NCBI GenBank assembly: GCA_017623605.1
Contig: JAGAOR010000040.1
Span: forward strand, 1-51,642
Direction of reading: 5' to 3'
Length of the DNA: 51,642 bases
Source: Clostridia bacterium
Lineage (GTDB): Bacteria; Bacillota; Clostridia; Christensenellales; Borkfalkiaceae
Shown here: positions 1,110 through 51,301 of the stretch, one piece after another
Position numbering within the stretch: position 1 is the first letter of the stretch
How the letters are laid out: the number at the start of each line of letters is the position of its first letter
The notes under the pieces: generated by a model
Told to the model about the DNA's origin: nothing
Databases searched by the model: none
What the model saw: the letters and a program-made list of their open reading frames with translations, nothing else
Program-made: the position numbers and the translations under genes

Positions 1110-1751
1110 ATGAAATTTTGCACTAAATGTGGGACACAACTCCATGATGATGACATTTTTTGTACTAAATGTGGTTACAAAGCGCCGCAATTTGAACCTC
1201 AAACAAAAATAGCTAATCCATTGAACAATAACGAAATAAACAACATAAATTCTGAATCTGCTAACACTACAAACAATAGTAAAACGCTCATTTTTAAAAA
1301 GATATTTTCAACCCATAAAATAGTTATTACAATAACTGCTGTGATTTTGTGTGTAGTTATAATCGGAATTGTATCTCCCTTTTCCAACGCTGCTTCAATA
1401 GAAAAAAATATAAACAAACTTTTAAAAAACGACTTGAACACTTCGATTGAAATTATAAAACTATACCATAATGAAGAAAAACATGGATGTTTTGTAGAAT
1501 TCCAAACTCGCTCATATACCGATAAGGCTGCCATCAATCTCAATACTGAAATAATAGAATATGAGAGTGAATTTGATTATTGGACTGCAAAAGCAGAAGA
1601 ACTTAGAAATCAAAAGCCAATCAATCAAACTGAATTACATAAATATAATCAAAAAATAATAAATTCCTTCTATGCGGAATGGAGTTTTTCTATAACCGTC
1701 TTTGAAGCTAATGGCAGACCAAAAGATAGCGATTGGGAAAGAATAAAATAA
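1110..1751 (+). CDS. zinc-ribbon membrane protein, hypothetical
   Basis: A 213-residue protein that shares the N-terminal plan of its upstream neighbour: a zinc ribbon with Cys4, Cys7, Cys18 and Cys21, an Asn-rich linker, then one transmembrane segment at about residues 73-95. Beyond the membrane is a domain of about 115 residues without cysteine clusters, containing charged helical stretches. It starts 19 bases after the previous gene with a CAAGGAG site, so the two probably form an operon. The shared ribbon suggests related proteins with exchanged outer domains. Composition is AT-rich, as in the genes either side. No specific function recognised. Confidence 0.8.
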   Translation: MKFCTKCGTQLHDDDIFCTKCGYKAPQFEPQTKIANPLNNNEINNINSESANTTNNSKTLIFKKIFSTHKIVITITAVILCVVIIGIVSPFSNAASIEKNINKLLKNDLNTSIEIIKLYHNEEKHGCFVEFQTRSYTDKAAINLNTEIIEYESEFDYWTAKAEELRNQKPINQTELHKYNQKIINSFYAEWSFSITVFEANGRPKDSDWERIK

Positions 1752-1788
1752 ACTAAAATAATTTATATACGCTTTTAGGAGAAATAAA

Positions 1789-2055
1789 ATGAATACAAGA
1801 AAACATCTTAATATACTTGACACCTTAACAACCGTCCTTTTAGCTTTTAGCCTTGTAGGAGCTATCGTATGCTTTTTCGCAATGATTGCTGATGAAGGTT
1901 CAACACCGTTTTTAGTTTGTGCAATTTTGTCTTTAAGCCTTTATTTTAGTAAGGTATTTTTAAACGTAATTATAGATTTCTATGACACAATAATTACTAA
2001 AAATAAAACATTAAACACACCTAATATAGATTTTATAAATTCACAAGAACAATAG
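1789..2055 (+). CDS. small two-helix membrane protein, hypothetical
   Basis: An 88-residue protein with two predicted membrane helices (about residues 13-34 and 40-62) and a polar tail with several Asn and Lys residues. It follows the zinc-ribbon genes in the same direction after 37 bases and has an AGGAG site at 1777-1781. It is AT-rich like them. I do not recognise the family. Position and composition suggest it belongs to the same accessory cassette. Confidence 0.6.
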   Translation: MNTRKHLNILDTLTTVLLAFSLVGAIVCFFAMIADEGSTPFLVCAILSLSLYFSKVFLNVIIDFYDTIITKNKTLNTPNIDFINSQEQ

Positions 2056-2064
2056 CATGAACAA

Positions 2065-2093
2065 TTGACAGAAAATTCAAAATATGTTATAAT
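2065..2093 (+). promoter_or_regulatory. perfect sigma-A promoter for the micro-peptide unit
   Basis: TTGACA at 2065-2070 and TATAAT at 2088-2093 are separated by exactly 17 bases, and a TG one base before the -10 makes it an extended -10 promoter. This is a full consensus match. It sits just after the stop of the small membrane protein, and the predicted start of transcription is near 2100. Confidence 0.9.
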
Positions 2094-2168
2094 ACCGCTT
2101 GTTCTCATATTATTTTCCCTTTTAATGTTAATTACTTGAATGTATTACACAATTAGGAGGTGAGCGGT

Positions 2169-2225
2169 ATGACTAAAACTAAAACAGTCAAGGTTACGGT
2201 CAAAATCCGTATCCGTCGCAGATAA
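2169..2225 (+). CDS. 18-residue basic micro-peptide
   Basis: An open frame encoding MTKTKTVKVTVKIRIRRR. It has eight Lys/Arg and no acidic residue, and polar and hydrophobic residues alternate, as in an amphipathic beta strand. It is preceded by AGGAGGTGA at 2155-2163, a nine-base match to the 16S anti-Shine-Dalgarno region, five bases from the ATG. It is framed by a consensus promoter (2065-2093) and an intrinsic terminator (2237-2264), so it is a complete minimal transcription unit. The family is not recognised. It could be a small toxin or antimicrobial-like peptide, or a leader whose RNA is the functional part. Translation is inferred from signals only. Confidence 0.55.
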   Translation: MTKTKTVKVTVKIRIRRR

Positions 2226-2236
2226 TATGTGACCCT

Positions 2237-2264
2237 AAGAGAGTGCTGCGGGCACTCTCTTTTG
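2237..2264 (+). terminator. terminator after micro-peptide
   Basis: A perfect nine-base stem AGAGAGTGC (2238-2246) and GCACTCTCT (2252-2260) encloses loop TGCGG and is followed by TTT. It begins 12 bases after the peptide's stop codon and closes the unit. Confidence 0.85.
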
Positions 2265-2392
2265 TATTAGTGCTAGATTTTAGAATATTTATATTTTTGA
2301 ATTTGTCTGTAAATAGTTGCCAATTTGATTAATAACTACTTGAGAAATTAGTTAAAATCTACTTTACGAATTGAAGTTTTATATACGAATAC
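2265..2392. other. AT-rich spacer without a recognised feature
   Basis: This stretch between the micro-peptide terminator and the next promoter is very AT-rich. The only structure noticed is a weak inverted repeat TAACTA...TAGTTA around 2333-2354. No gene or RNA was recognised. Confidence 0.5.
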
Positions 2393-2421
2393 TTGACAAA
2401 CATACAAAACTATATTATAAT
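2393..2421 (+). promoter_or_regulatory. sigma-A promoter of nfeD-SPFH-GT2 operon
   Basis: TTGACA at 2393-2398, a 17-base spacer, and TATAAT at 2416-2421: a full consensus match. The predicted leader before the ATG at 2457 is about 28 bases. Confidence 0.9.
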
Positions 2422-2456
2422 GAATATATAATATTAAGAGAGGTTTGTAAAGGATT

Positions 2457-2912
2457 ATGATGTGGTTATGGTTTGGGCTGACGGTAGGTCTTTTGTTTGT
2501 CGAGATCGCTACCACCGAATTGGTCGCGGTGTGGTTTGCTGTCGCGGCGCTGATATTAGGCATTATCGCGGCGTTTGTTCCGTCGCTTAGCGTAGTATGG
2601 CAAGTTGCCATTTTTGCGGCGTTGTCGGTAGCGTTGGTGCTTGCCACGCGTCCGCTCGTTAAAAAATTGATGAAGCGCAATAAAAACCGAGAAACGAATT
2701 TGGATTTAGTGCTCAATCATACGGCGGTGGTCGTGGAGACGATATGTAACGATATGGAAAAAGGCGCGGTAAAAATCAACGGTTTAATTTGGAACGCGCG
2801 CTCGGAAAACGGCGAGAACATAGAAAAAGACGATTTGGTAACCGTGAAAGCAATACGCGGAAATAAAGCGATCGTAGTAAAAAATGAAAAAGTGGAGGAG
2901 AAAACGAAATGA
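2457..2912 (+). CDS. NfeD-family membrane protein
   Basis: A 151-residue short-form NfeD protein, which typically partners an SPFH/flotillin protein in membrane-domain organisation. Three hydrophobic segments span about residues 2-20, 25-44 and 48-66. A basic stretch (KKLMKRNKN) follows, then a C-terminal OB-like beta domain at about 82-145, as in the family. ATG codons stand at 2457 and 2460 and either could be used; the ribosome site is weak. The stop overlaps the next start as ATGA, so translation is coupled with the SPFH gene, the usual arrangement for this pair. Confidence 0.88.
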   Translation: MMWLWFGLTVGLLFVEIATTELVAVWFAVAALILGIIAAFVPSLSVVWQVAIFAALSVALVLATRPLVKKLMKRNKNRETNLDLVLNHTAVVVETICNDMEKGAVKINGLIWNARSENGENIEKDDLVTVKAIRGNKAIVVKNEKVEEKTK

Positions 2913-3829
2913 TGCCAGGAATTATAGCGATAGTAGTAGCAGTGTTGATCATACTTATATTGATTGTTTCAGGGATTAAAGTCGTACCCCAAGCGAAAGC
3001 GTACGTCGTAGAGCGGTTGGGAGCATATCACGAGACGTGGCAAACGGGTATACATTTTCGTATCCCGATCGTAGAAAGGATCTCAAAAGTCGTTTCCCTG
3101 AAAGAACAGGTGGTAGACTTTGCTCCACAGCCCGTGATCACGAAAGATAACGTAACAATGCAGATTGATACGGTCGTATTCTATCAGATTACGGACGCGA
3201 AATTGTACGCATACGGTGTAGAATCGCCGATTATGGCGATCGAAAATTTAACGGCAACCACGCTTCGTAATATTATCGGTGAAATGGAGCTGGATCACAC
3301 ACTCACATCGCGCGATACGATCAATGCAAAAATTCGTTCCATTTTGGACGAAGCAACCGATCCTTGGGGCATTAAGATCAACCGTGTGGAATTGAAAAAT
3401 ATCAAGCCACCTTCTGAAATTCAAGACGCTATGGAAAAACAGATGAAAGCGGAACGCCAACGCCGTGAAGCGATTCTTCGAGCAGAAGGTGAAAAGGCAA
3501 GTAATATTCTTGTGGCGGAGGGTAAAAAGGAAAGTCAGATCTTGGAAGCCGAAGCACAGAAACAAGCAGCCATTTTACAAGCGGAAGCGGAAAAGCAAGC
3601 GGCGATTTTAAAAGCAGAAGCAGAAAAGGAAGCAATCTTGCGTGTAAACGAGGCGCAAGCTGAATCTATTCGCTTAATCAACGAAGCAAAACCGCACGAG
3701 GCGTATTTGTTGTTGAAGAAATTGGAAGCTATGGAAAAAATGGCAGACGGTCAAGCGACTAAGATCGTTATTCCAAGTGAACTTCAAGGCATCGTTGGGC
3801 TTGTCAATACGATCAAAGAAGCAAAATAA
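2909..3829 (+). CDS. SPFH/band-7 (stomatin-like) membrane protein
   Basis: A 306-residue SPFH protein of the stomatin/paraslipin type. A membrane anchor lies at residues 5-25 and the band-7 domain at about 28-185, with the typical segments ERLGAYHETWQTG and ISKVVSLKEQVVDF. A long Ala/Glu/Lys helix follows. From residue 189 it shows five near-identical 11-residue units (pattern IL-x-AEAEKQAA), a hendecad coiled coil that would drive oligomerisation. It is predicted to form rings at the membrane with the upstream NfeD protein, with which it overlaps by four bases. The start has a GGAGG site. Its substrate or client is unknown. Confidence 0.93.
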   Translation: MMPGIIAIVVAVLIILILIVSGIKVVPQAKAYVVERLGAYHETWQTGIHFRIPIVERISKVVSLKEQVVDFAPQPVITKDNVTMQIDTVVFYQITDAKLYAYGVESPIMAIENLTATTLRNIIGEMELDHTLTSRDTINAKIRSILDEATDPWGIKINRVELKNIKPPSEIQDAMEKQMKAERQRREAILRAEGEKASNILVAEGKKESQILEAEAQKQAAILQAEAEKQAAILKAEAEKEAILRVNEAQAESIRLINEAKPHEAYLLLKKLEAMEKMADGQATKIVIPSELQGIVGLVNTIKEAK

Positions 3830-3841
3830 AGGTAGAAATTT

Positions 3842-4771
3842 ATGTCAAAATATTCTATCGTCGTACCCGCGTATAACGAAGAAGCGACGTTGCGTTTATT
3901 TTACGAAGCCACCGTGCCCGCGTTCGAAACGTTAAACGAAGAATTTGAAATTATTTTCGTGAACGACGGCAGCACGGATCGTACGCAAGAAATTTTAGCG
4001 GAGCTCGCAAAGCAGGACGCGCGTGTAAAGGTGTGCCGTTTTTCCCGTAATTTCGGGCAACAAGCCGCGCTTCTTTGCGGTATGCAGCAGGCTTCGGGCG
4101 AAGCGGTGATTGCGATGGACGCCGATTTGCAGGATAGCCCCGAGACGGCACTTGCAATGATTGAAAAATGGAAAGAGGGCTACGAGGTCGTGCACGGCAA
4201 ACGTAGAACGCGCAAGGGCGAATCGGCGTTTAAAAAACGCACGGCAGACTTGTTTTATAGCCTCACGCGTAAAATCACGGGCTTAAATATTCCTTCCAAC
4301 GTAGGCGATTTCAAGCTCTATGATCGAAAGGTGGTGAACGCAATTCTCTCTATGGGCGAGCACGATCGGCTTCTTCGCACGCAAACGGCTTGGGTGGGGT
4401 TTAAGCAAACGTTCGTCGAATTTGATCGCCCCGAACGAATAGCGGGTAAATCCCATTATACGCTTAAAAAAATGACGAGGCTTGCCCAAAGCGGGATCTT
4501 GCCCAACACGGAAGCAGGGCTCACGTTCCCGATCAAGCTTGGACTTTTCTTTGGCTTTGCAAGCGTTGCGTGCTTGATCACGTTTATTGTTTTGACGTGT
4601 TTGGGGATAAGCTTTGGCGGTTTAACGGCGTGGCTGTTTCCGACGATAGGGCTTGTAAGCACAATCACGCTTATATGTCAAGGTATAGCGAATTTGCACA
4701 CGGCAATGATCTATCGAGAAGTGCAAAACCGCCCGAAATATATCATCGCAGAAACGCTTAATTTAGAATAA
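3842..4771 (+). CDS. family 2 glycosyltransferase, polyprenyl-phosphate type
   Basis: A 309-residue membrane-bound GT2 enzyme of the dolichol-phosphate-mannosyltransferase/GtrB class. It would move a sugar from a nucleotide donor to a lipid phosphate carrier on the cytoplasmic face. The nucleotide motif VNDGS is at 40-44 and the DXD-type metal site MDADLQD is around 92-98. Two C-terminal membrane helices lie at about 228-255 and 262-285, as in GtrB proteins. It is the last gene of the NfeD-SPFH operon, 12 bases after the SPFH stop, and is followed by a terminator. Donor and final acceptor cannot be read from the sequence. Confidence 0.9.
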   Translation: MSKYSIVVPAYNEEATLRLFYEATVPAFETLNEEFEIIFVNDGSTDRTQEILAELAKQDARVKVCRFSRNFGQQAALLCGMQQASGEAVIAMDADLQDSPETALAMIEKWKEGYEVVHGKRRTRKGESAFKKRTADLFYSLTRKITGLNIPSNVGDFKLYDRKVVNAILSMGEHDRLLRTQTAWVGFKQTFVEFDRPERIAGKSHYTLKKMTRLAQSGILPNTEAGLTFPIKLGLFFGFASVACLITFIVLTCLGISFGGLTAWLFPTIGLVSTITLICQGIANLHTAMIYREVQNRPKYIIAETLNLE

Positions 4772-43992: not shown

Positions 43993-45480
43993 ATGGAAAC
44001 GAAAAAAAGCGAAAGCAAGCCCGTTGTAACACGGGCAGAAAAAAGAGACGCGGTGAAAAATCTTATCCGCGAAATTTTGGCGAAAGGAAGCGTTAAAAGT
44101 AACGATCTGATCGACGAGGCGGCGCGCTTGTACGCGGAACGCTTCGGTGGTGAGGATACGGAAAATCCGAACGACGTAAAAGGGCGCGTGGGTTCGGTGC
44201 TCGACGTGATGAAAAAGGACGGCGACGTACAATTCGACGGGGGCGTGTACGAGATCACCGCGCCAAGCCAAGAAGAAAAGCCGCTCCCTAAAAAGCGCAA
44301 AACGGCGAAGAGGGAATCGCCTATAAGCGAGGAGGAAAAGCTTGTAAAAGCGAAACGCACGGCTTCAAAAAAGAAAGAAGAAAAGAAAGAGGAAAATGAC
44401 AAGCCGCTTCCCCCTGCGCCCTTGCAACCGATCGCGCCTACCGCGCCGACGACGCCTGAAATTGCGCCCGAACCGATTCCCGAGGACACCGTGAAAAACG
44501 AGGAAAAGCCTGCGCCCAAAAAACGGGGCAGAAAACCCCGCGCGGAAACAAAGACGGAAGAAGCAAAGTCGGAAACGGAAACGGAAGAAATAAAAGAGGC
44601 GACGGAGCAAGAAAACACTGAAGCGAAAAAAGAAGAGAAAGCAGAACCAAAGGCGGAAGAAAAAAAGGAAGAGAAAAAGGCGGAGATTTCGCCCAAGGGT
44701 ATGCTAATGGATATGAGCTTTTTGTTTGGGAATATAAAGCCCGTGGAAAAGCCGCAACCTAAACCCATAGAAAAAGCAGAAAAAGCCGAAAAGCCTGTGG
44801 AAATCAAGCAAGAAACGAAGCAAGAAGTAAAGCAAGAAAAGAAAGCGGAAGTCAAGAAAGTCGAACAAAAGAAAACGGAGATTAAAAAGTCTACGCAAAA
44901 AACCGTTTCGCGGGGCGCAAAAAAACCGCTCACGCCCGATGAGAAGTTGCAAGAAGCCTTTTTAAACAGATTGCACCGCCTCGGCGGGGAATATTTCGAA
45001 TATTATTCGGTGTATTTGTTGGAGAAATATTCCCGCAGAAACGGTAGAAGACTGGAAAGCTTAAAAATTACGGGTGGCGACCACGACGGCGGTATCGACG
45101 GCGAGATCGAGCTTACGGACAAACTCGGTTTCCGTGAAACGATCTACATACAGTCGAAAAATTGGGATCCTGACAAGGGCTCTGAAAAACTGTGGGTAGT
45201 GGGAGAAACGCTGTTGCAACAATTTATCGGCGCGTGCGTATGTAGACAAGCCAAGGACGGCAAACAGCATTGTCGAGGCATTTTTATCACGACGTCGCGT
45301 TTTACGCCCGAAGCAAAACGTATGCTCGACGACACTGCGGATAAATTCGTAGGCTACGACGGCGCGGAACTTTACGAAACGGCGAAAGAATGTGCGTTTG
45401 GGATCGTGAAGAAGAACGGCGAATGGGTACTCGACGAAGAGCTTTTATCAGGCACGAAAGCATTTTTCAATATGATATAA
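43993..45480 (+). CDS. Mrr-type restriction endonuclease with winged-helix N-terminus
   Basis: A 495-residue three-part protein. Residues about 15-92 form a winged-helix/HARE-like domain (AVKNLIREILAKGSVKSNDLIDEAARLY). Residues about 93-310 are a low-complexity Lys/Glu/Ala/Pro linker. Residues about 315-495 are an Mrr_cat domain with GGDHDGGIDG (Asp363-Asp369), IYIQSKNW (Gln387, Lys389) and GIFITTSRFTPEA, the family's active-site pattern. Mrr enzymes cut modified DNA. Its place directly behind recO is unusual and could mean a genome-maintenance role. The ribosome site is AAAGGAACGG. A terminator follows. Confidence 0.88.
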   Translation: METKKSESKPVVTRAEKRDAVKNLIREILAKGSVKSNDLIDEAARLYAERFGGEDTENPNDVKGRVGSVLDVMKKDGDVQFDGGVYEITAPSQEEKPLPKKRKTAKRESPISEEEKLVKAKRTASKKKEEKKEENDKPLPPAPLQPIAPTAPTTPEIAPEPIPEDTVKNEEKPAPKKRGRKPRAETKTEEAKSETETEEIKEATEQENTEAKKEEKAEPKAEEKKEEKKAEISPKGMLMDMSFLFGNIKPVEKPQPKPIEKAEKAEKPVEIKQETKQEVKQEKKAEVKKVEQKKTEIKKSTQKTVSRGAKKPLTPDEKLQEAFLNRLHRLGGEYFEYYSVYLLEKYSRRNGRRLESLKITGGDHDGGIDGEIELTDKLGFRETIYIQSKNWDPDKGSEKLWVVGETLLQQFIGACVCRQAKDGKQHCRGIFITTSRFTPEAKRMLDDTADKFVGYDGAELYETAKECAFGIVKKNGEWVLDEELLSGTKAFFNMI

Positions 45481-45498
45481 AAGATAAAAAACGAGAAA

Positions 45499-45537
45499 AA
45501 ATCGCTTGAAAAGAAAAACTTTTCGAGTGATTTTTTA
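45499..45537 (+). terminator. terminator after the Mrr-type gene
   Basis: A 15-pair stem with two G-U pairs (45499-45513 with 45519-45533), loop AAAAA, and a T-run. It ends the yqfC-to-Mrr gene run. Confidence 0.88.
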
Positions 45538-45565
45538 TTATATAAAAATATTTTCATAAAAACGC

Positions 45566-45595
45566 TTGACAAAGCTCAAAGATTGGGCGTATAAT
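45566..45595 (+). promoter_or_regulatory. sigma-A promoter of the SipW-type module
   Basis: TTGACA (45566-45571), an 18-base spacer, and TATAAT (45590-45595). A second TATAAT at 45604-45609 lacks a good -35. Confidence 0.85.
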
Positions 45596-45640
45596 AAAAA
45601 TACTATAATAGAAAATAGTAGTCCTTGGAGGTAAAAAAAT

Positions 45641-46411
45641 ATGAAGAAAATTGGCTTATGGATGGCGGCTTTAACGGCAGTAACGGTCGGCGGCGTGTAT
45701 GCAACGTGGAATTATGCAGAAAACAACAACATTGCAAAAGTAATCCAAGAAAAGTCGATCGCGCTTGCGCCTGCACATCAAAAAGGCGAAAGTGGTTCTT
45801 ATTCGGTGGTGACGAGTGATGATTTCGGTATGTGGATTGAATCTTCTGGTTCTATGAGTCCTACCGCTACGAATAAGCATAACCCTGTGTTTGTAATGTC
45901 GGGAAAAATCACGATTTATTTCACCGCTTCTGCTAATGCAAGTCAACAGATTCGCGAAAACGGTTTAACGACGAAATTTGATTTCAGTTTAAACCTTGGC
46001 GGCTCATCAGCTTGGACATGCGATCCCAACTTTGAAGACGACGATGACGCGACAAACGATACATATCAGTTTGTTCAAAGCGTGGTAGCTCACGAAACGA
46101 CGATTTACCCCGTAGGAACGACAGGTGACAATGTCGTTGCAACGTGGAAGCGGGAAAGCGCAGGCGTATTCTCTTACGTGATTGATACAAATGTAACTAG
46201 AACGGTAAATCCCGACAAGACGTATGTATTAGATATTCCTAGTGATCCTAGTGAGGGTGAGGCGAAGTATCAAGACGTGATCACGTTCGAGAACTTTACG
46301 TTGGATACGTACGCGAAATATGAATATTTCCGCGACGTTGCGCTCGATGGTAAAATGGTCGTACTCAGCATAAACGACACGACGGGTCAAGCGGAAGCGC
46401 AAAAGGCGTAA
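45641..46411 (+). CDS. putative surface protein A with SipW/TasA-type signal peptide
   Basis: A 256-residue predicted exported protein. A Lys-Lys start and hydrophobic core (about 4-20) end in GGVYATWNYAEN. In TasA the mature chain begins at Phe-Asn after WAA, and here the matching cleavage would be between Thr22 and Trp23. The remainder is Ser/Thr/Asp-rich with alternating beta-type segments (KITIYFTASANA, YVLDIPSD) and a negative cluster EDDDDATND that may bind calcium. No sorting signal or membrane tail is seen. GGAGG at 45627-45631 and a strong promoter suggest high expression. It is first in a unit with a SipW-like peptidase. Family otherwise not recognised. Confidence 0.75.
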   Translation: MKKIGLWMAALTAVTVGGVYATWNYAENNNIAKVIQEKSIALAPAHQKGESGSYSVVTSDDFGMWIESSGSMSPTATNKHNPVFVMSGKITIYFTASANASQQIRENGLTTKFDFSLNLGGSSAWTCDPNFEDDDDATNDTYQFVQSVVAHETTIYPVGTTGDNVVATWKRESAGVFSYVIDTNVTRTVNPDKTYVLDIPSDPSEGEAKYQDVITFENFTLDTYAKYEYFRDVALDGKMVVLSINDTTGQAEAQKA

Positions 46412-46459
46412 ACATACTTTAACGCGGGTGTTTTCCGAAAATAACTAAATACAAAGACG

Positions 46460-46492
46460 CTTTATCCCCATAATTCGTTTATGGGGATAAAG
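46460..46492 (+). promoter_or_regulatory. intercistronic hairpin in the SipW-type module
   Basis: A perfect 14-base stem CTTTATCCCCATAA (46460-46473) and TTATGGGGATAAAG (46479-46492) with loop TTCGT. No T-run follows, so it is more likely a partial terminator, processing site or stabiliser of the upstream message. Confidence 0.7.
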
Positions 46493-46512
46493 ACTTTCGA
46501 CGGAAAAGGAAT

Positions 46513-47418
46513 ATGACGCACGAAACGTATATACTCATTCTTTGCATTATCGTGTACGTGATGATGGCGAGTGTGTCGATTGCCGTAATTGTAGCATTGA
46601 CAAAAATGTCGCTCAAATTGATTCGGCACGGTGCAGAAGATGAGCAAATCATCAAAGAAAAACAGAAGACACGCAAAAAGAACGGAAACTTCTTCGATAT
46701 GTTGATTTCCGCGCTTTTTTGCGTTGTTTTTGCTTGTGCGTTTTTATTCTCTGCCTACGTAAACGTGAGTGGAAACGCATATTTCGACGATATACCCACG
46801 CTCAAAGTTGTAAACAGTCCGTCAATGTCGAAAAAACACGAAAAGAACGAGTATTTGTTTAAAAATAATCTCAACGATCAATTTGATACGTTCGACGTGG
46901 TGTTGACGTATAAAATCCCCGACGAATTCGATTTAAAGCTCTACGACGTTGTCGTATATGAGATGGAAGATATTTTGGTAATTCACCGTATCGTTGAAAT
47001 AGAAGAACCGAATGCTCAACACCCGAACGAGCGCTATTTTAGAACGCAAGGGGATAACGTGGAAACGGCAGACCGCTTCCCCGTGCACTATTCGCAAATG
47101 CGCGCCATTTATCGCGGTGAGAAAATCCCATTCGTGGGTAGTTTTATCAACTTTATGCAGTCGCCTGCGGGTTGGCTTTGTATGATCTTAATGCTTGCCG
47201 CAACGATTGCCACGCCGATTATTGATAAAAAGCTGGAAAAGGCAAGAGCGGAACGGTATGCTGTTCTTTGCAAGCAACGACAAAAACTTGCAGGACAAGC
47301 GCAACACCAACCGATTGTTGCCGCACCCGTGTGTTTATATCCCGTATATTACGATTCTGCAAAGGTTGCGTTTTCCGCTCCGCCTACGCCGAATGAGAAT
47401 AAGGGGGAAAGGAAATGA
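46513..47418 (+). CDS. SipW-like (ER-type) signal peptidase I
   Basis: A 301-residue S26B-family signal peptidase. Membrane helices are at about 6-30, 62-84 and 218-238. The catalytic Ser104 lies in VNSPSMSK, and the general base position is His158 in VIHRIVEIE, the histidine that marks archaeal/ER-type enzymes such as SipW instead of the usual bacterial Lys. Asp181 and Asp187 in QGDNVETAD complete the site. The gap of about 50 residues between the Ser and His motifs is longer than in SipW. The N-terminal extra helix and the basic cytoplasmic tail are additions. It probably processes the two flanking cargo proteins; the downstream one is coupled by ATGA overlap. Confidence 0.87.
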   Translation: MTHETYILILCIIVYVMMASVSIAVIVALTKMSLKLIRHGAEDEQIIKEKQKTRKKNGNFFDMLISALFCVVFACAFLFSAYVNVSGNAYFDDIPTLKVVNSPSMSKKHEKNEYLFKNNLNDQFDTFDVVLTYKIPDEFDLKLYDVVVYEMEDILVIHRIVEIEEPNAQHPNERYFRTQGDNVETADRFPVHYSQMRAIYRGEKIPFVGSFINFMQSPAGWLCMILMLAATIATPIIDKKLEKARAERYAVLCKQRQKLAGQAQHQPIVAAPVCLYPVYYDSAKVAFSAPPTPNENKGERK

Positions 47419-48398
47419 GATCGCTTTCTAAAATTACCCTTTGTTTAACGGCGTTTTTAATGGTCGGCACGATTGCAAGCGTTTCGGCAGCGTTTAATTA
47501 CGCGGCGTACGGCGCGGAAACGAGCGAAAAAGAGCTCACGTTTCAAGTTGCACTGTTTGATTGGGAGGGTTCGGAAGTTTTGCCCGATAACGTGCAGGGG
47601 GAAGATCACCAAACGCTTATCGATTTAATTTTAAACAGTGAAGCAGGCTTGAATACGTCTGGTTCCTATCTCAACCAACAAATTGACGATCGTAAAAGCA
47701 GTTTTTGGGGGTGGGATACGTATGGTAGTATGGACGTGTATGACGCCACGCAAATGGCGAGTATTTTCAAAACGGAAACGAGCGGGCTCACGTTTCTTTT
47801 AGAGTTTCCTAAAAATGATAAGAACACGCAATATTTATATACGACGAGCGTGGATCTTGGCGAATCGGGTTATCTTAGCGATCAAAAGAACAATATTCCG
47901 ACAGGTCGGAACGTATATGCCGTGTATCGCACGATTTTAAAGTGGAATTCGGAAACGGGTAAGTGGGAAGCGCAAAAATCGGAGCTTGGCTATGCGGAGT
48001 CCGCTTGGTACGATAATAATCTGCTCGGTTCTTGGGTGGCAAAATGTCCTTCGTTTGATCCCGACACGTGGCAGGCGGGTAAACAGGGCACGAGTTCAAG
48101 TAATTCCGTTTATACCTACGTGGGACAACATACTACGGCTTACGTGGACTCAATAACGGAAGTAGCGTGGTACGATTTAACGCCTAGCGAAGCAGGAACG
48201 CGCACGGTAAGCTCTTATAATCTTGATTGTACAATAAAAATTACCAACGCAAACGGAAAAACGGTGTACGCAACGAGTAATATAATCAAAGACGCGGACG
48301 GCAAAGATATGGTTTCCGTGTCTTGGAACGCTTCGGGAAATACGAAATATTATATTCAAATTTCAGGCGATACGTCTATGCGATTTACCGTTTCTTAA
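47415..48398 (+). CDS. putative surface protein B with SipW/TasA-type signal peptide
   Basis: A 327-residue predicted exported protein, translationally coupled to the signal peptidase (overlap ATGA). The N-terminus has a hydrophobic core (about 7-24) ending in SVSAAFNYAAYG. The SAA-Phe-Asn junction equals the TasA cleavage context, giving cleavage after Ala26. The mature part is rich in Ser, Thr, Tyr, Trp and Asn, with repeated beta-type segments, and ends YYIQISGDTSMRFTVS. No LPXTG or membrane tail. It shares only the leader region with protein A, so the two are different cargoes of one peptidase. Function unknown; fibre or matrix roles are plausible by analogy. Confidence 0.75.
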   Translation: MRSLSKITLCLTAFLMVGTIASVSAAFNYAAYGAETSEKELTFQVALFDWEGSEVLPDNVQGEDHQTLIDLILNSEAGLNTSGSYLNQQIDDRKSSFWGWDTYGSMDVYDATQMASIFKTETSGLTFLLEFPKNDKNTQYLYTTSVDLGESGYLSDQKNNIPTGRNVYAVYRTILKWNSETGKWEAQKSELGYAESAWYDNNLLGSWVAKCPSFDPDTWQAGKQGTSSSNSVYTYVGQHTTAYVDSITEVAWYDLTPSEAGTRTVSSYNLDCTIKITNANGKTVYATSNIIKDADGKDMVSVSWNASGNTKYYIQISGDTSMRFTVS

Positions 48399-48410
48399 AA
48401 ATTTATGAGA

Positions 48411-48446
48411 AGTAGGGCGTGCTCGGCAAGCGTGCCGTACTATTTT
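48411..48446 (+). terminator. probable terminator of the SipW-type module
   Basis: A 13-position stem with one mismatch (48411-48423 with 48429-48441) and loop CGGCA, followed by ATTTTG. Confidence 0.6.
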
Positions 48447-48508
48447 GCAAAAAAACAGAAAGATTTTTGTAAAGCACAAAAAAATTATAAAAAAAGCAGT
48501 TCAAAGAC

Positions 48509-48537
48509 TTGATATTTTATTTAATTTAGTATAAAAT
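48509..48537 (+). promoter_or_regulatory. probable promoter of ppdK
   Basis: TTGATA (48509-48514), a 17-base spacer, and TAAAAT (48532-48537). The leader to the ATG is about 110 bases and contains a small stem CCCCA...TGGGG (48573-48588). Confidence 0.55.
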
Positions 48538-48655
48538 AGAATAGCTGAAAACGATTTAAAATTACTTTCCGTCCCCAAAGCTATGGGGGTGGGGTGTCTT
48601 TTTGTGTTTGAGGCGTTTATACAAGGAAAAAATCAATTTGGAGGAAATAACAATT

Positions 48656-51301
48656 ATGGCAAAAAAATATTGCTATCTCTTTACCGAGGGTAACGCGAAA
48701 ATGCGCGAAATTCTCGGCGGCAAAGGCGCGAACCTTGCGGAAATGACGAATATCGGTCTGCCCGTCCCCCAAGGCTTCACCATTTCAACGGAAGCTTGTA
48801 CGCAGTATTATGAAGACGGCAAGCAAATCAATCCCGATATTCAAGCCGAGATTATGGAATATATCGAAAAGATGGAAAACATCTGCGGTATGAAATTCGG
48901 CGACAAGGAAAACCCCTTGCTCGTTTCCGTGCGTTCGGGTGCGCGCGCTTCTATGCCCGGTATGATGGATACGATTTTGAACCTTGGTTTGAACGAAGAA
49001 GTAGTCAACACGCTCGCAACCAAATCGGGCAACCCCCGTTGGGCTTGGGACTGCTATCGTCGTTTCATTCAAATGTTCTCTGACGTCGTTATGGAAGTAG
49101 GTAAGAAGTATTTTGAAAAGCTTATCGACGAAATGAAAGAAAAGAAAGGCGTAACCCAAGACGTAGAGCTTGACGCCGACGATTTGAAAGCACTTGCAAA
49201 TCAATTTAAGGCAGAATATAAAAAGCAACTCGGCAAGGATTTCCCTTCCGATCCCAAAGAACAGCTTTTCGAGGCTGTGAAAGCGGTGTTCCGTTCGTGG
49301 GACAACCCCCGTGCGAATATCTACCGTATGGATCACGATATTCCGTATAGCTGGGGTACGGCGGTAAACGTACAAATGATGGCGTTCGGTAATATGGGCG
49401 AAACGTCGGGCACGGGTGTTGCATTCACGCGTAATCCCGCGACGGGCGAAAAAGGACTTATGGGCGAATTCCTCACCAACGCCCAAGGCGAAGACGTGGT
49501 TGCGGGTGTGCGTACTCCGATGCCAATCGCGCAAATGAAAGAAGTATTCCCTGAAGTATACGAACAGTTCCTCAAAGTTTGCGATATTTTGGAAAATCAC
49601 TATCGCGATATGCAGGATATGGAGTTCACTATTCAAGATAGAAAGCTTTATATGCTTCAAACGCGTAACGGTAAGAGAACGGCGGCGGCGGCGATCAAGA
49701 TCGCTTGCGATTTGATTGACGAGGGTATGATCACCGAACAAGAGGCGCTTATGCAAATCGACGCCAAATCGCTCGATATGCTCTTGCACCCTCAATTCGA
49801 CGCAAAAGCACTTAAAGACGCGGATAAGAACAACGTGGTAGGTAAAGGTATTGCGGCTTCTCCCGGCGCGGCGGCAGGTAAGATCGTGTTCACGGCAGAG
49901 GATGCCGTAGTAGAGGGCAAGAAAGGCGAAAAGGTGATTCTCGTTCGCTTGGAAACCTCGCCCGAAGATATTGAGGGTATGAAATACGCGCAGGGTATCT
50001 TGACGGTACGCGGCGGTCAGACTTCGCACGCGGCGGTTGTTGCGCGCGGTATGGGTACGTGTTGCGTTTCGGGTTGTGGCGATATTAAAATGCACGAAGA
50101 AGAAAAATGGTTCGAACTCGCAGGAAAAATCTTCCGCGAGGGCGACGTGTTATCGCTCGACGGTTCGACGGGTACGATCTACGATTGCTCGATTAAAACC
50201 GTTCCCGCTGATCCTAACTCTGGCTATTTTGGACGTATTATGGAACTTGCGGATAAGTATAAGGCACTTGGCGTAAGAACGAATGCAGACACGCCCGCGG
50301 ACGCGAAACAGGCGGTTGCGTTCGGCGCACAGGGTATCGGTCTTTGCCGTACGGAGCATATGTTCTTCGATCCCGACAGAATTGGCGCGTTCCGTGAAAT
50401 GATCTGTTCGGACACGGTGGAAGAAAGAGAAGCGGCACTCGCGAAAATCGAGCCGATGCAACAAGCGGACTTCGAGGGCTTGTTCGAAGCACTCGGCGGG
50501 TATCCCGTAACGATCCGTTTCCTTGATCCCCCTCTGCACGAATTCGTTCCCACGGCGGAAGAGGATATTGCTGCGCTCGCCAAAGCGCAAAACAAGACGG
50601 TTGCACAGATTAAAGACATTATCGCAAGCTTACACGAATTCAACCCGATGATGGGACACAGAGGTTGCCGTTTGACGGTTACCTATCCCGAAATTGCGGT
50701 AATGCAGACGAAAGCGGTGATCAAAGCTGCAATCAACGTTACCAAGAAGCACCCCGATTGGAAACTTATTCCCGAGATCATGATCCCGCTCACGGGCGAA
50801 ACGAAAGAATTGAAGTTCGTGAAAGACATTGTCGTGAAAACGGCAGACGAAGTGATTGCGGCGGCAAAATCTGATCTCAAATACGAAGTGGGTACGATGA
50901 TCGAAATTCCCCGTGCGTGCTTGACGGCGGAAGAGATTGCAAAGGAAGCGGAATTCTTCTGCTTCGGTACGAACGATCTTACGCAAATGACGTTCGGCTT
51001 CTCGCGCGACGACGCTGGTAAATTCTTGCCTTCGTACTACGCAAACAAGATCTACGAATCCGATCCGTTTGCAAGACTTGACACGACGGGCGTCGGCAAG
51101 CTTATGGAAATGGCAGTTGCGGGCGGTAAAAAGGTTCGTCCCGAAATGCATTGCGGTATTTGCGGTGAACACGGTGGCGATCCTTCCTCGATCGAATTCT
51201 GCCACGAAATCGGCTTGACGTACGTTTCTTGCTCGCCTTATCGTGTACCCATTGCACGTCTTTCCGCAGCACAAGCGAACATCCGCAATCCTAGGTCCTA
51301 A
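48656..51301 (+). CDS. ppdK: pyruvate, phosphate dikinase
   Basis: An 881-residue enzyme that interconverts pyruvate, ATP and phosphate with PEP, AMP and diphosphate. It is common in anaerobic Clostridia, where it replaces or supports pyruvate kinase. The nucleotide-binding N-terminal domain includes LGGKGANLAEM. The phosphohistidine domain has GGQTSHAAVVARGMG with the catalytic His near residue 458. The PEP/pyruvate domain has CRTEHMFF, and MHCGICGEHGGD, with the catalytic Cys, is near 830-837. The start at 48656 follows GGAGG (48640-48644); the open frame extends 18 codons upstream without support. Monocistronic, followed by a terminator. Confidence 0.97.
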   Translation: MAKKYCYLFTEGNAKMREILGGKGANLAEMTNIGLPVPQGFTISTEACTQYYEDGKQINPDIQAEIMEYIEKMENICGMKFGDKENPLLVSVRSGARASMPGMMDTILNLGLNEEVVNTLATKSGNPRWAWDCYRRFIQMFSDVVMEVGKKYFEKLIDEMKEKKGVTQDVELDADDLKALANQFKAEYKKQLGKDFPSDPKEQLFEAVKAVFRSWDNPRANIYRMDHDIPYSWGTAVNVQMMAFGNMGETSGTGVAFTRNPATGEKGLMGEFLTNAQGEDVVAGVRTPMPIAQMKEVFPEVYEQFLKVCDILENHYRDMQDMEFTIQDRKLYMLQTRNGKRTAAAAIKIACDLIDEGMITEQEALMQIDAKSLDMLLHPQFDAKALKDADKNNVVGKGIAASPGAAAGKIVFTAEDAVVEGKKGEKVILVRLETSPEDIEGMKYAQGILTVRGGQTSHAAVVARGMGTCCVSGCGDIKMHEEEKWFELAGKIFREGDVLSLDGSTGTIYDCSIKTVPADPNSGYFGRIMELADKYKALGVRTNADTPADAKQAVAFGAQGIGLCRTEHMFFDPDRIGAFREMICSDTVEEREAALAKIEPMQQADFEGLFEALGGYPVTIRFLDPPLHEFVPTAEEDIAALAKAQNKTVAQIKDIIASLHEFNPMMGHRGCRLTVTYPEIAVMQTKAVIKAAINVTKKHPDWKLIPEIMIPLTGETKELKFVKDIVVKTADEVIAAAKSDLKYEVGTMIEIPRACLTAEEIAKEAEFFCFGTNDLTQMTFGFSRDDAGKFLPSYYANKIYESDPFARLDTTGVGKLMEMAVAGGKKVRPEMHCGICGEHGGDPSSIEFCHEIGLTYVSCSPYRVPIARLSAAQANIRNPRS

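Follow-up and report, generated by a model that had tools for sequence, protein, structure and literature searches.

A three-gene locus and its relatives

Contig JAGAOR010000040.1 of a Clostridia bacterium from the Borkfalkiaceae (assembly GCA_017623605.1; all 51,642 nt of it, referred to as the window) carries a three-gene export module on the forward strand, consisting of a secreted protein (cargo A), a signal peptidase of the endoplasmic reticulum (ER) type and a second secreted protein (cargo B). A preliminary description of the window had proposed a self-contained SipW-type secretion module with two unrelated cargoes at this place, and all of the parts that it named are found where it put them. 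A sigma-70-type promoter, TTGACA-18-TATAAT with 12/12 matches (45566-45595), lies 45 nt ahead of cargo A, and a Shine-Dalgarno sequence for cargo A, GGAGG (45627-45631), can be read after it. Cargo A (45641-46411, 256 aa) was assigned to no family by family searches; its mature part was aligned across 21 proteins, the window's included. Its 21-aa leader (45641-45703) ends in GGVYA, and the alignment and junction counts predict the cut VYA|TWNY. A hairpin of 14 pairs with outer arms TATCCC/GGGATA (46460-46492) occupies the intercistronic gap between cargo A and the peptidase gene, with 3 T within the next 8 nt. The ER-type (Ser-His) peptidase (46513-47418, 301 aa), recognized by model matches, alignment and hydropathy, has membrane segments at residues 9-27, 63-81 and 219-237 and the catalytic set S104, H158, D181 and D187. 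Cargo B (47415-48398, 327 aa), also without an assigned family, is coupled to the peptidase gene: the stop of the latter and the start of B share 4 nt. It has a 25-aa leader (47415-47489), for which junction counts predict the cut VSA|AFNY, and an extra C-terminal domain (48087-48395) that is present in 3/22 B proteins (window, L032 and L033). A weak terminator-like hairpin (48416-48436) lies 3' of cargo B. An Rfam search of 45400-48700 returned just FuFi-1, at E 0.28 and far under its gathering score.

The same order of cargo A, peptidase and cargo B is shared by 21 distinct loci, 13 from the window's genus, 7 from other genera of the order and 1 from a named record. The preliminary description, which treated the window alone, was right that the module is real, but the module also occurs in other genomes and a second time in the window's own. 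In this paralogous module (contig C11), the peptidase copy has 47% identity; an A-like leader (41% across 34 residues) lies upstream of it and a relative of B (40%) downstream. The first sample comprised 61 genomes including the window's, 37 of the genus and 24 others of the order. A strong peptidase copy (E 1e-60 or better) was found in 13 of them, 12/37 in the genus, where the window's genome carries two loci, and 1/24 among the others. Together with the named record (L003, from deer rectum) this sample gave 15 loci, and in 15/15 the peptidase gene is preceded by A and followed by B, all on one strand. A second sample of 396 genomes drawn from the order, searched at a peptidase threshold of 1e-30, gave matches at 18 places in 16 genomes. 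Nine of these match at 1e-100 or better and all have A and B (3 had been counted before); the other nine are weaker and represent a sister peptidase group with different cargoes. Since all 21 strong peptidase relatives (21/21) have A upstream and B downstream on one strand, the arrangement is not due to chance.

The cargoes, for their part, do not occur mostly apart from the peptidase, which had been named as the finding that would speak against a linked system. Strong matches to cargo A in the 396 genomes fall at 10 places in 9 genomes; nine of the ten adjoin the peptidase, and the tenth (G155:C118) is truncated by a contig end. Of the weak matches, 4 correspond to the leader of a B-type gene, and another, interrupted by two stops (G405), was left out. 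Three loci have flawed frames: the B frame of L031 is cut by a contig end, the B of L087 matches its profile at just 1e-5, and the A start of L083 is uncertain. At 1e-25 the peptidase profile matched the window's own genome alone in each of two wider samples, one of 398 genomes from the phylum and one of 274 from the class, and the module is thus confined to the order within these samples. Its distribution within the order is patchy, although absences are weak evidence because many genomes are incomplete. Spread by plasmids or viruses was considered and rejected, as the peptidase had no match in the plasmids searched and A1 and A2 had none in the viral contigs searched.

The peptidase and the leader junction

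ER-type signal peptidases are defined by a Ser-His catalytic pair, as opposed to Ser-Lys (PMC10269814; here and below, statements on published work follow excerpts of the articles cited). The pair S104 and H158 is invariant in 21/21 module peptidases, and so are the other two residues of the proposed Ser104/His158/Asp181/Asp187 set, the window's copy included. When the window's peptidase was compared with PDB sequences, two matches were obtained at 0.01, both to SEC11A (best E 0.008). It matches the SipW equivalog NF046067 with 56.2 bits (E 3e-15), under the curated cut-off of 190 bits, and the archaeal/ER-type model TIGR02228 with 42.9 bits, under the cut-off of 51.85 bits. All of the 15 peptidases aligned first match both the SipW and the archaeal-type model, SipW at E 0.01 or better.

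In 21/21 peptidases a hydropathy scan places one segment near the N-end and two around the catalytic part, one just before and one behind it. The extra N-terminal membrane segment is thus a trait of the module peptidases (21/21). The canonical SipW-type peptidase of the window's genome (L133) has two segments, and two other canonical peptidases, L043 and L044, reach three through two neighbouring C-terminal ones. Within the loop between segments one and two of the module peptidases, G40, D43 and I46 are invariant in 21/21. In a quick tree of 35 rows, a single branch (SH-aLRT 98) sets all 21 apart from the rest. Some of the branches in the outgroup are very long, and the rows were gathered with a motif filter that picked up 8/9 sister loci and 6/10 of the canonical or other loci tried. 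Long C-terminal extensions are found in 6/21 peptidases (L033, L035, L039, L085, L086 and L088; 490-720 aa in total) and consist of a ~110-aa domain in 1-3 copies; this domain, presumably cytosolic, has no Pfam family above cut-off in L033 and L039.

The leaders of both cargoes end in an aromatic junction resembling that of TasA. Mature TasA begins with AFNDI and mature TapA with AFHDI (PMC10151520), and Trp26 and Phe are P2 and P2' of TasA (PMC10269814). The matching cuts are therefore VYA|TWNYAEN for cargo A and VSA|AFNYAAYG for cargo B. The shared TasA-like junction of the preliminary description thus stands, but by this analogy the cut probably lies one residue before the N-termini that it predicted, WNYAEN and FNYAAYG. 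In the 15 aligned A proteins V19, Y20, A21 and W23 are invariant (15/15), in an alignment made without a junction pattern; one of the six later members (L087) has F at the W23 position. Junctions were counted with a pattern that demanded [AS]-x-[WF]-x-[YFD]. There are 22 A leaders, one from each of the 21 modules and one from the truncated L099, and 21 of them fit the pattern. These all carry V-Y-A at P3-P1; P2' is W in 20 and F in one, and P4' is Y in 18 and F in three. The remaining leader, from L083, reads GGVYA|TWQY by eye. The 22 B leaders (21 modules and L098) have W (19) or F (3) at P2', Y (18) or F (4) at P4', A (21) or S (1) at P1 and an aromatic P2 in 18, figures that are partly built in by the pattern. 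Over mature residues 1-5, A and its own B are on average 60% identical in the 21 modules; further in, identity drops to 6-16%. The two cargoes thus have near-identical mature N-termini as in tapA-sipW-tasA, partly by selection since the junctions were found by pattern, and they share the leader and first residues only (x-[WF]-x-[YF]).

Aromatic residues at P2 and P2' hinder the P-type enzyme LepB. None of 143 verified LepB substrates of E. coli has an aromatic P2', and the P2 tryptophan of TasA hinders cleavage by LepB (PMC10269814). In the window's genome (81% complete) a single P-type peptidase exceeds the cut-off of its model, and a dedicated enzyme for leaders of this kind would make sense. 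It is likely that both cargoes are processed by the linked peptidase as its dedicated substrates.

Expression layout and co-inheritance

A promoter with 11 or 12 of 12 matches lies within 300 nt upstream of A in 16/21 modules, compared with 10/109 control upstream regions, which include genes inside operons (Fisher p 6e-10). The gap between A and the peptidase gene is at least 25 nt long in 18/21 modules, and 16 of these 18 gaps fold at z <= -3; among control same-strand gaps, some of which perhaps hold terminators, 8/23 do so (Fisher p 0.0006). The hairpin TATCCC...GGGATA, a motif chosen after the hairpins had been inspected, was found 9 times in the 435,590 nt covered, which came from 42 sources. 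Seven occurrences are in the A-peptidase gap (window, L033, L034, L036, L037, L086 and L088), and two are elsewhere (L048 and L083). In the window 1 is found and 0.01 is expected. The shorter ATCCC/GGGAT occurs 28 times, mostly outside this gap. The next four inner pairs of the seven hairpins, which are outside the motif, are kept in 28/28 cases with 3-4 pair types per position. The start of B overlaps the peptidase gene in 10/21 modules (chosen starts) and lies within 63 nt of it in 9 more. The recurrence of a near-perfect promoter before A and of a hairpin after it suggests that A is made in excess. Whether it terminates or is a processing site, the hairpin would favour A over the peptidase and B. 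The gene order is A-peptidase-B in 21/21, and it is the promoter and the hairpin that point to A as the major cargo.

Distances among A proteins correlate with those among their peptidases (Mantel r 0.42, 0/2000 permutations), as do distances among B proteins (r 0.28, 11/2000), in tests that still contain the relatedness of the genomes. The N-termini of A and its own B at first look more alike than those of other pairs (2/5000), an effect that is lost when sister modules are swapped.

Relation to known export systems and possible roles

The module is like the tapA-sipW-tasA operon of Bacillus subtilis in combining a dedicated ER-type peptidase with two secreted proteins that share their first mature residues (PMC10151520, PMC9674648). 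Small P1 and aromatic P2' residues are common to both, and in tapA-sipW-tasA, too, a stop/start overlap joins the peptidase gene to that of the minor cargo. As the preliminary description had pointed out, the gene order is probably different, being cargo A (the presumed major cargo), peptidase, cargo B in 21/21 loci, and it is with the next gene that the peptidase gene overlaps. The module peptidase has the extra N-terminal membrane segment, A and B are unrelated by profile to camelysin-type cargoes, and the junction is mostly [YF]A|[TA]W-x-[YF], whereas tapA-sipW-tasA has WA|AFND. The module layout parallels the scarcity of TapA and SipW compared with TasA (PMC10151520), the order being inverted. 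The sipW-bsaABCRSD operon of Clostridium perfringens likewise combines SipW with a secreted polymer protein, and a terminator with readthrough is predicted after bsaA, its bulk cargo, a parallel with the order reversed. In that operon the peptidase comes first and a two-component regulator lies inside (PMC7395162). The likeness to BsaA is one of operon features. This cargo-peptidase-cargo arrangement was not found described in the literature searched, which scarcely covered subscription journals.

The window's genome holds a third SipW-type locus, of the canonical camelysin type (L133, contig C22, 3029-9791, minus strand), with three camelysin-type cargoes of 220, 540 and 1044 aa. Like the module it has an ER-type peptidase, here followed by the secreted cargoes, whose leaders are of the GGTFALFTS kind (TIGR04088 above cut-off in 3/3; PF12389 with 3 matches, 2 above cut-off). 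It differs in its two-segment peptidase and in cargo profiles unrelated to A and B. The nine sister loci (L089-L097) come from genomes of the same taxonomic order and have, as checked in L089, a peptidase with the extra N-terminal segment. Their operon is a different one and so are their cargoes, with GFA[AST]W leaders in 8/9 and the ninth cut by its contig. In 6/9 two further genes encode a membrane protein of ~600 aa and a protein of ~430 aa; in L089 the former has weak AAA-like matches and the latter a weak DUF2357 match. These loci look like another nameless export system. At yet another locus (L155, 2639-6509) a B-like cargo occurs with a differently built ER-type peptidase, which has a long hydrophobic N-terminal part, and with leaders of the YA[AQ]VST type.

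A and B have no Pfam or NCBIfam match above cut-off, and A, B, the C-terminal domain of B and the N-terminal domain of type-2 B have no significant PDB sequence match. B proteins exist in two forms sharing a core, one short and one with an extra N-terminal domain; they range from 200 to 467 aa, with extra domains in some. Profile-profile comparison of A or B with camelysin-type cargoes of the same genus, which stood in for TasA itself, gave probabilities below 1%, while the positive controls, a pair of camelysin groups and a pair of B groups, reached 95% and 98%. PF12389 (TasA/camelysin) matches neither A nor B by sequence or profile. In the window's genome, searched at E up to 10, the 34-position model TIGR04088 for SipW-cognate leaders finds the three C22 cargoes alone, not A and B. 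The earlier impression that the mature cargoes are unlike TasA and camelysin is thereby upheld for camelysin-type cargoes, and the identification of A or B as camelysins by sequence was rejected. Mature A and B are also unrelated to each other by profile, as had been proposed. Distant homology of the two was tried and rejected: hhalign gave 0.3-12%, and the better cases (3-12%) are aligned across about 20-30 N-terminal residues. Compared with three cytosolic stretches of the window, its mature A and B have more beta-forming and fewer helix-forming residues. Both families are acidic, with a median net charge of -15 for A and -16.5 for B (22 proteins each). A sortase-like string in the last 60 residues was seen in one protein only (FPVTN in the A of L042).

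Because it falls outside the SipW equivalog, the model of SipW-cognate leaders and, by sequence, the camelysin family, the module is filed as a variant of the dedicated-peptidase kind; by analogy it works like a SipW system. We propose that it is an export unit that yields much A and little B. A strong housekeeping promoter would drive cargo A, and the hairpin after A, be it a leaky terminator or a site of processing, would lower the expression of what follows, so that the peptidase and B are made sparingly. Both cargoes would be exported via Sec. Their leader ends, with a small P1, an aromatic P2' and usually an aromatic P2, are of a kind expected to resist the general P-type peptidase, and the adjacent ER-type enzyme would cut them instead. 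The mature proteins, acidic and rich in beta-forming residues, would begin with nearly the same peptide ([TA]-W-x-[YF]-A in most). A could then be the main building block of an extracellular polymer, where the preliminary description had supposed a surface fibre or matrix, and B its minor starter or anchor. These two roles, which we infer from the layout and the N-terminal peptide, are put forward tentatively, at slightly under an even chance. The proposal as a whole, a three-gene unit with A as polymer subunit, a peptidase that cuts both cargoes and B as starter or anchor, we consider evenly balanced between right and wrong. That the module would make a second, independent kind of donor-strand-like filament in Gram-positive bacteria, from two families unrelated to TasA and TapA, is rather unlikely; such a filament would have reached the TasA/TapA solution of a dedicated ER-type peptidase, a shared aromatic N-terminal peptide and a hairpin-based excess of one subunit.

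Several observations weigh against this proposal. The A-peptidase gap is too short for a hairpin in 3/21 modules, and the folds of L032 (z -2.5) and L042 (z -1.8) are weak. Counted by one rule, at least 5 T in the 8 nt after the hairpin are found in 8/18 cases after A and 10/20 after B; with up to 2 nt of slack, T-runs follow in 12/18 and 15/20. A distinction of the A-peptidase hairpin from terminators by missing T-runs was dropped, as the difference is gone under one counting rule, and the similar rates mean that some of these hairpins may simply terminate. B lies 149 and 512 nt from the peptidase gene in L038 and L041. The B of the window itself has Ser, not an aromatic residue, at P2. Distances among A and among B proteins show no significant correlation (r 0.12, 211/2000), and an apparent co-variation of A and B N-termini within modules was dropped, as swapping them among sister modules left 5 better, 3 worse and 2 tied. 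B-like cargoes sit in the different ER-type peptidase operon of L155 and, in L098, with no peptidase within the 9 kb examined; a third (L156) is cut by a contig start. The best PDB matches of A, all non-significant, are the CfaE pilin (0.1-0.3), cohesin (0.4-0.8) and a chitinase (0.5).

Dedicated export without a polymer is a substantial possibility, though well short of even. A and B would be soluble or wall-bound surface proteins, such as adhesins or binding proteins, that share a peptidase for their resistant leaders, with no assembly and no starter role for B. That mature A and B are unrelated, that B varies in length and domains as binding proteins do, and that no solved fibre protein matches significantly all fit this explanation. 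A dedicated peptidase, an excess-type layout and a TasA/TapA-like N-terminal peptide, on the other hand, typify the known SipW fibre systems (PMC10151520, PMC7395162). The module could also be an ordinary operon of the TasA-TapA type whose cargoes are homologues diverged past sequence detection, for which the sub-cut-off SipW match of the peptidase, the TasA-like junction logic and the presence of two cargoes could be cited. We consider this improbable in view of the profile comparison with its working controls, the failure of PF12389 and TIGR04088 to find A and B, and the separate camelysin-type operon, with its own peptidase, in the same genome. Least probable is that the leaders are kept and hold A and B in the membrane while the peptidase acts on something else; this would suit the strong hydrophobicity of most leaders but agrees poorly with the 21/21 linkage and with the invariant A junction V-Y-A|x-W-x-[YF] at the place where TasA is cut.

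The upstream neighbour of the module in the window (43993-45480) encodes an Mrr_cat-type endonuclease (PF04471, E 1e-11) with a long Lys/Glu/Pro-rich linker, and a gene judged by eye to be alike lies beside the module of L031 (2257-3873), from a second species. The downstream neighbour (48602-51301) is a gene that we take, from its sequence, to encode pyruvate phosphate dikinase; a gene presumed to be of the same kind adjoins the module of L038 on the upstream side (1522-4254). The modules of L083 and L036 lie downstream of genes that presumably correspond to spoIIGA and sigE, and that of L083 directly precedes what we take to be a sigG-like gene.

The SipW-type export systems described from Bacillus and Clostridium perfringens have fibre-forming cargoes (PMC10151520, PMC7395162). 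Here, a group of ER-type peptidases travels with two unmatched cargo families, and the window's genome has a camelysin-type system besides. As the junction is nearly all that A and B have in common, the module lends itself to a clean test of which substrate features such a peptidase recognizes. It also offers a candidate surface polymer for uncultured Clostridia-type bacteria.

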